Positions 6,386 to 9,280 of a stretch of 59,376 nt of DNA are shown here, one piece after another (positions within the stretch are counted from its first letter, which is position 1; the number at the start of each line of letters is the position of its first letter). The notes beneath the pieces are model-generated. The model made no database searches and was not told where the DNA came from. It was given only the letters and a program-made list of their open reading frames with translations. Made by a program: the position numbers and the translations under genes. Source of the stretch: Streptomonospora mangrovi (lineage in GTDB: Bacteria > Actinomycetota > Actinomycetes > Streptosporangiales > Streptosporangiaceae); the NCBI RefSeq assembly GCF_027604915.1, contig NZ_JAJAQC010000049.1, forward strand, positions 1 to 59,376, in the 5' to 3' direction.

Positions 6386-6553
6386 TCAGACGCAGCCGGT
6401 GTCGACCCCGTTGCGTGCGGCGATGCGGTGCAGGTCCTCAAGCTCCGACATGTGCACGTCGGCGAGGTACTCGTCTCCGGCGGCCTGCGCCGCTTGAAGC
6501 GACTGGCGGATCTCCATGATGCGGCCCTTGATCTCCGCGCGGAACTCGCCCAT
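6386..6553 (-). CDS. Small conserved-looking helical protein, 55 residues
   Basis: A gene below common ORF cut-offs: ATG at 6553, stop at 6386, with a good ribosome binding site (GTGAGGTGAA) just upstream. The protein begins MGEFRAEIKGRIMEIRQSLQ and ends NGVDTGCV. It is mostly charged amphipathic helix with one Cys near the end, no signal peptide and no membrane segment. Codon third positions are mostly G/C, as expected of a real gene here. Similar short proteins occur at this place in other actinobacteria as far as I recall, but no function is known to me. Confidence 0.75.
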   Translation of the reverse strand: MGEFRAEIKGRIMEIRQSLQAAQAAGDEYLADVHMSELEDLHRIAARNGVDTGCV

Positions 6554-6925
6554 TTCACCTCACTTTTTCTTCGCGTCGATGCTGCGAATGCTGCGGTTGC
6601 TGCGTATGCGGTGGGCCCCGACGGGACCCGGACGGACGCCATGAACGCGCCACGGCGGTGTGGCGGATGACGTGGAGGACGCGGCGTCGTGACCCTCGCG
6701 ACCCGCGGGTGGTGGCCATACCCAGTGCGGCGCTGCCCCCAAACCCCCGCAGGTGGGACGTGATCGAGCCGTGATGGGGGCCGGGCGGGCGAAAGCCCCG
6801 TCGCGGCGCGGGCGGGCGTGGGACAATCGCGAGGGGCGCCGGCGGGCGCCCGCCGCACGTGCCGCCGACCGCGTTCGCCCGTTACGGAACGGTGCGCTAC
6901 ACCACATCCGGCGAACGGCACCAGG

Positions 6926-6966
6926 GCTTACTTGTTTCTTATTCTTGATGTGTCAGATTTGAAATG
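6926..6966 (+). promoter_or_regulatory. AT-rich patch, probable promoter region of cutRS
   Basis: This is the only strongly AT-rich stretch within several kilobases, containing TTGTTTC, TTCTTGATG and ATTTGAAATG. Exact -35 and -10 boxes cannot be assigned with confidence. It directly precedes the first leader hairpin. Confidence 0.35.
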
Positions 6967-6978
6967 TGCGGGGTGAAC

Positions 6979-7015
6979 GTCGCTGCCGGCGGTTGGGGGA
7001 TACGCCGGCAGCGAC
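6979..7015 (+). repeat. Leader hairpin copy 1 (13-bp stem, GTTGGGGGAT loop)
   Basis: GTCGCTGCCGGCG (6979–6991) is the exact reverse complement of CGCCGGCAGCGAC (7003–7015), with the 11-nt loop GTTGGGGGATA. A second copy with the same loop lies at 7257–7294. The second base pair is T–A here and C–G in the other copy, a compensatory change. Confidence 0.75.
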
Positions 7016-7256
7016 ACCCGCGCACAGGGGAGCCCCTCGGGCACCGGATCCCGGTCCCGCGCGGCCCCTCAGCGGCTACCCAGGTTGCCGCGCACCCGCC
7101 ACCGGCCGCTCGCGGCCGGCGCCCCGGGTGAGGCCCCGCCCTCCGCGGCACAACCGCGGCGGGCACGGAGATCCATGGCGGCACCCCTGCCGCGATGGCT
7201 TACCTCATCCTTATTCAGCGGGTGCGATAACGGATGGTGCAGCCGGGGGTTCAGAC

Positions 7257-7294
7257 GCCGCTGCCGGTGTGTTGGGGGATGCGCCGGCAGCGGC
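7257..7294 (+). repeat. Leader hairpin copy 2 (11-bp stem, GTTGGGGGAT loop)
   Basis: GCCGCTGCCGG (7257–7267) pairs exactly with CCGGCAGCGGC (7284–7294); wobble pairs can extend the stem inward. The loop again contains GTTGGGGGAT. It ends 40 nt before the GTG of cutR. No T-run follows, so it is not a normal terminator. Confidence 0.75.
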
Positions 7295-7334
7295 CCACCC
7301 GGGTCGCGAATGGACGAAGGACGACGAACACACA

Positions 7335-7984
<650 letters not shown>

Positions 7985-7988
<4 letters not shown>

Positions 7989-9280
7989 CCCCGCCGGACG
8001 GCGAGTCCGGCCCCGCCGTCTCGCCGGGCGAGGTCGCGCCCACGCCGCCGGGCGACACCGGCACGTGGCGGCGGCTGTCCTCGGCCCAGCCCGCCCCCTC
8101 GGCCGCCGCGGGCGGCCCGGTCGCGGGCGGGGTGCACCGCTTCACCGACAACATCAGCCTGCGCGCCCGGCTCACCCTCATCTACGGGATGCTGTTCTTC
8201 GCGGCCGGCTCGTTCCTGGTGCTGCTCAACTACATCATCGTCGCCGGGCTGCTGGACAACCTCACCTTCACCGTCGCGCCCGACTCCCCCTACTACGACG
8301 ACCCCACCGCGCTGGAGAACATCAAGAACACCTACATCGAGACGGTGCTGGCCGAGGTCACCCGCTTCTCGGTGATCGCGCTGGTGATCGTGGGGCTGCT
8401 CGCGGTGGGCCTGGGCTACTTCGTGGCGGGGCGGGCGCTGTCGCCGCTGCACAAGATCACCCGCATCGCGCGGCGGCTCTCCGAGCGCTCCCTGCACGAG
8501 CGCATCGCCCTGGGCGGGCCCGACGACGAGATCCGCGAACTCGCCGACACCTTCGACGGCATGCTGGAGCGCCTGGACCGCGCCTTCGACGGCCAGCGCC
8601 GGTTCGTCGCCAACGCCTCCCACGAGCTGCGCACCCCGCTGGCCATCAACCGCACCCTCCTGGAGGTCGCCCTGAGCGACCCTGAGGCGTCGGCCGACCT
8701 CAAGACGGTGGGGCGCACCCTGCTGGAGACTAACGCCCGCCACGAGCGGCTCATCGACGGCCTGCTGTTCCTGGCCAAGAGCGACCGCGAACTGGACGTG
8801 CGCACCCAGGTCGACCTCGGCGAGGTCGCCGAGACGGTCCTCAGCCAGCTCTCCGAGGACGTCGAGAAGTCCGGCCTGACCGTGCGCACCGACCTGCGCG
8901 CCGCGCCCGTCACCGGCGATCCCGTGCTGCTGGAGCGCCTGGTGGCCAACCTGGTCGAGAACGCGCTGCGCTACAACGTGGCCGAGGGCGAGATCACCGT
9001 GCGCTCGGGCAGCTACGAGGACTCCCCGGCGGTGCAGGTGGAGAACTCCGGCCCGGTGGTCCCCGGCTACGAGATCGAGGGCCTGTTCGAGCCGTTCCGC
9101 CGCGCCTCGGGCGACCGCGTGCGCTCGGGCCGCAGCGCCGGCCTGGGGCTGTCCATCGTCCGCTCGGTGGTGCGCGCGCACGGCGGCACGGTCAGCGCCT
9201 GGCCGCGCGCGGGCGGCGGCCTGGTGGTCACCGTGCGCTTCCCCCGGGTGCGCCGCGAGTCGGCCGCGGCGGGGCGCTGA
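7985..9280 (+). CDS. cutS: Sensor histidine kinase CutS
   Basis: Partner of CutR. A TTG at 7985 overlaps the cutR stop (TTGA), implying translational coupling, and gives 431 residues; a GTG at 8132 would remove 49. The first ~55 residues are Pro/Ala-rich and cytoplasmic. Transmembrane helices lie at about 62–88 and 128–150 around a short external loop of only ~40 residues. A HAMP linker follows, then the H-box with His213 (ANASHELRTPLA), the N-box (NLVENALRYN, 323–331) and the G-box (GLGLSIVRSVV). No sensor fold is recognisable in the short loop. Confidence 0.92.

Follow-up and report, generated by a model that had tools for sequence, protein, structure and literature searches.

The window analysed here, a 59,376-nt stretch of DNA from Streptomonospora mangrovi, contains a response-regulator gene that we take to be cutR, a name that follows the initial annotation, followed by the histidine kinase gene cutS. 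Two hairpins, H1 and H2, lie before cutR. The genes and hairpins are as follows:

7335..7988, plus strand: cutR, OmpR-type response regulator of 217 aa with Response_reg and Trans_reg_C domains
7985..9280, plus strand: cutS, sensor histidine kinase with HAMP, HisKA and HATPase_c domains
6979..7015, plus strand: hairpin H1, the distal copy, a perfect inverted repeat with a 13-bp stem, loop GTTGGGGGAT(A) and covariation
6992..7001, plus strand: H1 loop word GTTGGGGGAT, present in 37/40 H1 copies, the other three varying before the G run
7257..7294, plus strand: hairpin H2, the proximal copy, a 38-nt covariance-model match identical in 39/40 loci
7271..7280, plus strand: H2 loop word GTTGGGGGAT, present in 40/40 H2 copies

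A divergent reading frame of 55 aa, with no match in Pfam, lies on the minus strand 5' of cutR at about 6386-6553, and both hairpins fall inside the roughly 780 bp that separate this frame from cutR.

The arms of H1, GTCGCTGCCGGCG-GTTGGGGGATA-CGCCGGCAGCGAC, are perfect over 13 bp (6979-7015), and H2, GCCGCTGCCGGTG-TGTTGGGGGATG-CGCCGGCAGCGGC, forms 13 pairs including one T-G (7257-7294). As the initial annotation had stated, the hairpins start 278 bp apart and agree in stem core (CGCTGCCGG...CCGGCAGCG) and loop word (GTTGGGGGAT). The second pair is indeed T-A in H1 and C-G in H2, and it is one of the eight pairs that prove to be changed on both sides among relatives. The word GTTGGGGGAT occurs twice in the window, both times as a hairpin loop, where 0.05 occurrences are expected, and two occurrences were reached in none of 100 shuffles. 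Both stretches are predicted to fold more stably as RNA than their shuffled counterparts (z -4.9 for H1 and -3.4 for H2). In the window's own genome the covariance model scores H1 at 65.5 bits (E 1.2e-9) and H2 at 59.4 bits (E 2.4e-8), with the third-best match reaching only 27.9 bits.

Distribution and pairing of the twin hairpins

We compared 46 loci: the window, five genus mates, 33 loci with CutR identity of 82-93%, which are those of all other genomes in that range, and seven hand-picked loci at 75-78%, one of which (G067) was chosen because matches were already known there. Both hairpins lie before cutR in all six genomes of the genus, so that a conserved stem-loop is present in the close relatives tested for its absence, and both copies lie upstream of cutR in 40 of the 46 loci. 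The other six (L210-L212, L214-L216) have neither copy and give no match to covariance model R1 at E 1; across the 46 loci, none with one copy was without the other. Copies in the 40 loci were located through the word GGGGGAT, and the constancy of their loops is therefore partly built in. The G run of H2 begins 51-121 nt 5' of cutR, and the distance between the H1 and H2 copies ranges from 104 to 320 nt in these loci. At L213 (G067), where CutR is just 77% identical, two H2-type copies lie 104 nt apart with the upstream one at the H1 place, a pattern that looks like copy-over between both sites, or transfer.

Within the family, R1 finds matches in 70 of 341 genomes and 17 of 68 genera, with exactly two matches in each positive genome, and the loci of 40 of these 70 genomes were inspected for position relative to cutR. 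This copy number is unlike that of a dispersed palindromic repeat. Repeats of the REP or MITE type occur in many copies at unrelated places, and here the window's own genome holds two strong copies. The class was sampled with 394 genomes, of which 35 match at E 0.01 or better: 23 with two strong matches, all within the same family, and 12, two of them in the family, with one weak match each (31.9-39.8 bits). Inspection of seven of the 12 weak-match genomes found GTTGGGGGAT in none. One weak match, L259, carries GTCGGGGGAC on a different stem. Another hairpin, L260 (G037:C106:173646-173685), from another genus of the family, is a long GC hairpin that scores 39 bits with R1 and has the loop GTTGGGGGAC on another stem; it is perhaps a distant user of the same loop, or a chance likeness. 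R1 at E 1 has no match in ten Streptomyces, Kitasatospora and Actinocrinis loci. As far as we have searched, through 341 family and 394 class genomes, the element appears to be restricted to one clade.

The H1 stem is kept by compensating changes. Pooling both copies gives 32 distinct sequences, in which 99.5% of cells are paired and 8 of the 13 pairs are changed on both sides; the covariation score of 0.376, compared with 0.190 for shuffled sequences, was matched in none of 500 shuffles, and any of five covariation measures was reached in at most 3 of 500. H1 alone (31 distinct sequences) again has both-side changes at 8/13 pairs. Parsimony on a 30-genome cutR tree assigns to H1 28 double changes between Watson-Crick pairs; another 14 changes lead to G-U, none leads to A-C, and there is a single mismatch. 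Since a G-U here would be an A-C on the opposite strand, the excess of G-U over A-C (sign test, p 1.2e-4), to which a C-to-T bias on the sense strand could contribute, is of the kind left by sense-strand RNA, pointing to such an RNA rather than to a DNA operator. The 38 nt of H2 are identical in 39 of 40 loci, with a mean identity of 99.9%, compared with 46% and 35% in the 20-nt flanks on its two sides and 84% in the first 40 codons of cutR. In other words, the constraint on H1 is on shape and loop, and that on H2 is on every letter. As in a leader RNA, pairs change in compensation across species, and the element keeps a fixed place, on the sense strand, before one gene.

It is the hairpins themselves that are kept, since pairing within each hairpin exceeds any pairing between them: cross-pairing of H1 arms with H2 arms, as in an antiterminator, reaches 93.7% and 92.7% against 99.8% for the own arms and drops to 10/13 in three genomes, and we rejected it. 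A leader peptide is likewise rejected, because the spacing between H2 and cutR is not kept in one frame, all three values modulo 3 being represented, and because the changes in H1 are paired across the stem. Fold prediction also places a longer helix around H1:

6965..7026, plus strand: possible outer helix around H1, TGTGCGGGGTG / ACCCGCGCACA

At least four outer pairs appear in 40 of 40 single folds, which is more pairing than in shuffled flanks; flanks swapped between genomes pair equally well, so there is no signal of coevolution, and at H1 a control region also pairs equally well.

A third hairpin lies between H1 and H2, at about -225 to -271 from cutR, in all six genomes inspected in genus g9 (L181, L182, L185, L186, L190, L193). 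Its stem, which has one mismatch in L190, is unrelated to those of H1 and H2. Its loop is GTTGGGGGA(C/T), that is, GTTGGGGGAC in general but GTTGGGGGAT in L193, and the outer loop letters pair as G-C and U-A around a UGGGGG hexaloop. Equivalent G-U and U-A loop pairs are possible in 78 of the 80 H1 and H2 copies. The recurrence of this loop on an unrelated stem favours the loop, and not the letters of the stem, as the recurring and working part.

Tandem boxes, predicted promoters and CutR

Each hairpin is preceded by a tandem box and a -10-like hexamer:

6927..6942, plus strand: distal tandem box CTTAC-N6-CTTAT, module 1, with the 11-bp half-site spacing of OmpR-type sites
6954..6959, plus strand: -10-like hexamer CAGATT of predicted promoter P1, within a conserved block around GTGTCAGATTYGARATGTGCGGGGT in 40 loci
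7199..7214, plus strand: proximal tandem box CTTAC-N6-CTTAT, module 2, a strict-pattern match in the genus
7226..7231, plus strand: -10-like hexamer GATAAC of predicted promoter P2

The hexamers end 19 nt before H1 and 25 nt before H2, and no sigma-70 consensus was found near the hairpins in the window. Given a tandem box and a -10-like hexamer before each copy, each hairpin probably starts its own transcript from a predicted promoter. The strict pattern YTTACN5YCTTAY occurs 15 times in the six genus genomes, and 12 of these occurrences, two per genome, are at cutR. The box at H2 is lost in L197, L198, L200 and L213, yet the hairpin is kept.

OmpR-type regulators bind tandem repeats whose half-sites are about 11 bp apart. 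The hairpins are inverted repeats, and the tandem boxes are separate features beside them; by its spacing, the tandem box resembles a response-regulator site, plausibly one for CutR. A tandem TTAY-N7-TTAY box (YTTAY-N6-YTTAY) also lies 73-115 nt before cutR in 9/9 Streptomyces and Kitasatospora loci (L031-L036, L038-L040), where CutR is 73-76% identical, and before cutR in 7/7 of L210-L216, at about -64 to -91 in general and at -257 in L213. No box of the same type was found away from cutR in the 13 scanned loci L031-L043, and it is absent from L037 and L041-L043. The Streptomyces cutRS promoter thus resembles that of the window in having a related cutR and the same type of box before it, and differs in having a single box and no R1 match at E 1.

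In Streptomyces, the cutRS promoter is enriched for CutR by ChIP-seq in vivo and is unbound in vitro, according to a published study that gives TAWATAAA as the CutR motif of S. venezuelae (PMC12802291), and an S. coelicolor study also has the cutRS promoter among its enriched sites (PMC10433416). TAWATAAA is absent from the letters of H1 and H2. The cross-genus tandem box is a candidate regulator site that the published in vitro mapping of the cutRS promoter may have missed. The proposal that the hairpins are a dimeric protein site, perhaps for feedback by CutR itself, is not supported, as the arms of H1 change in pairs and the non-palindromic loop stays fixed; if there is a response-regulator site here, the tandem box is more likely to be that site than the hairpins.

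CutS of the hairpin clade has no cysteine in its extracellular loop in any of six readable members (the window, L113-L116 and L140; L112, L125 and L145 were set aside because their translations were in a wrong frame), and two cysteines are found there in 4/4 Streptomyces CutS proteins compared. The latter two are described in a published report as conserved and as controlling CutS activity (PMC12802291). With the cysteines missing from the loop, CutS in the hairpin clade probably senses a signal different from that of Streptomyces CutS.

Terminator likeness and known RNA families

The initial annotation had noted that neither hairpin is followed by a T-run. This is so in the window, which has no terminator-like site between 6500 and 7400, but among the relatives it fails for H2 in 18 of 40. 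A run of at least five T within 14 nt follows H2 in those 18 loci and H1 in 1 of 40, against 1.5% of background windows (Fisher p 8e-6 for H2 versus H1; as the genomes are related, such genome counts and p values are not independent events). Because the window's H2 is without a T-run, attenuation is not visible in the Streptomonospora mangrovi genome. The hairpins are thus like intrinsic terminators and attenuators in having a strong GC stem before a gene, with a T-run in 18/40 relatives, and unlike them in the near-constant loop, the two copies, the lack of a T-run in the window and its near-total lack after H1.

No Rfam 15 family scores above its cut-off in window positions 6500-7600 or in five relatives. 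The top score belongs to the F6 small RNA (RF01791), at 27.5 bits in L181; F6 also has the lowest E-value, with 26.6 bits and E 0.029 in the window, on the strand opposite cutR. These scores are far under the F6 cut-off of 46 bits, the strand is disfavoured by the G-U changes, and the resemblance is that of a GC hairpin only. The 6C RNA (RF01066; B11 in mycobacteria), which is absent among the window matches up to E 5, is likewise an actinobacterial RNA with a pair of GC-rich hairpins in whose loops one letter predominates, and the G5 loop of H1 and H2 is complementary to these C-rich loops. It differs in that the loops are C-rich and belong to a single trans-acting RNA of about 75 nt that is widespread in the family, whereas H1 and H2 have G-rich loops 104-320 nt apart before cutR, and do not form one short RNA with two C-rich-loop hairpins. 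A search of open-licence papers found nothing on a cutRS leader RNA. The view of the initial annotation that this is a repeated RNA element outside the known leader families is supported, as far as sequence can show, by covariation, wobble bias, place, copy number and the lack of an Rfam match, and the twin hairpins are probably an undescribed RNA element that would control cutRS.

A model for the leader and its alternatives

On balance we lean towards a twin structured leader RNA in which a factor reads the G5 loop and H2 serves as an attenuator. The paired structure, near-constant loop, strand bias, place and copy number are direct observations; the promoters, transcription through the hairpins, docking, attenuation and the factor are the putative parts of the model. 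The 5' leader of the cutRS mRNA would contain the same structured RNA element twice, as H1 and H2, each within its own promoter module made up of a tandem box of response-regulator type, a -10, a start and the hairpin. A transcript from P1 or P2 would start within about 10-20 nt of a hairpin, which would fold at once, and P1 transcripts would contain both hairpins. We suggest that the G5 loop docks a trans-acting factor, either a small RNA that presents a C-rich loop or an RNA-binding protein, and that the H1 stem would only prop up this loop. H2 would double as an attenuator, and since it is a GC hairpin followed by a U-run in many relatives, docking there probably chooses between a stop and read-through into cutRS. 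The invariance of the whole H2 stem is a point against loop-only contact, which leaves it unexplained.

A more specific proposal names 6C as the factor: this small RNA has two C-rich loops, which would form kissing contacts with the G5 loops. Of 61 family genomes, 55 have a match to a 6C-type RNA, above the cut-off in 48, and the window's own genome has one on another contig (L217 1501-1576; G000:C31:14021-14096), at 43.2 bits where the cut-off is 47. In the six element-bearing genomes inspected its second loop is UCCCCCC, which pairs with GGGGGA, and the energy of the best duplex is -17.7 kcal/mol for the loop of H1 and -17.4 kcal/mol for that of H2. For an M. abscessus mRNA whose 5' UTR contains a G6 tract, one C-rich loop of B11, whichever of the two is present, is enough for repression (PMC10470900). 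Nevertheless, 6C is far more widespread than the hairpin element, the fit has little specificity because any G5 pairs with any C run, and under strict filters two of the 17 element-bearing genomes among the 61 (G047, G050) lack a 6C match at E 0.01, so that we regard 6C docking as rather unlikely. Its strongest form, in which the G5 leader loops, two in most of the clade and three in g9, capture both C-rich loops of the conserved 6C and so tie cutRS to a global small RNA through termination at H2, seems very unlikely. We also looked for antisense partners of the 10-nt loop word. It or its complement stands at 41 sites in the six genus genomes, and among the 30 inspected (8 of these at cutR) no partner outside cutR is shared by more than two genomes.

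If H2 had no ligand and simply terminated transcription constitutively or stabilised the 5' end, its strong GC stem and the T-run in 18/40 loci would be accounted for, but such a hairpin has no need for a kept 10-nt loop or for 38-nt identity in 39/40 loci, and H1 retains the loop though it is without a T-run in 39/40; we consider this unlikely. We also think it quite unlikely that a dimeric regulator, be it CutR or a different protein, uses the inverted repeats as operators in double-stranded DNA. Two copies in a promoter region would suit such operators, and the 38-nt identity of H2 in 39/40 loci fits a site that is read by its letters. Against this stand the paired changes at 8/13 positions of the H1 arms around a nearly fixed, non-palindromic spacer, the count of 14 G-U against no A-C, which a DNA palindrome does not predict, the third hairpin of g9, which retains the loop on an unrelated stem, and the tandem repeats, the kind of site that OmpR-type regulators bind, which adjoin each hairpin. 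A short trans-acting RNA of about 60 nt with a G-rich loop, made from P2 and H2 and having cutRS as a mere neighbour, would explain the invariance of H2 and its terminator-like end in many relatives, and a G-rich loop could titrate C-rich small RNAs. We find it most improbable, as both copies are at cutR in all 40 element-bearing loci, none of the 70 genomes has a third strong model copy, and H1, mostly without a T-run, would be left unexplained.

In Streptomyces, CutRS governs the response to secretion stress and influences antibiotic output, and its own promoter is enriched for CutR in vivo but unbound in vitro (PMC12802291). The twin hairpins offer a concrete, mutable handle on cutRS expression in a related clade, and they add to the structured RNAs one that covaries strongly, keeps its G5 loop nearly constant and is covered by no Rfam model. 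They also provide an example of a promoter-plus-leader module retained twice before one operon; this would be unusual for a structured leader RNA, both in being twinned with a promoter module and in having a second copy that is letter-perfect. Should capture of 6C prove true, it would link a secretion-stress sensor to a global small RNA.
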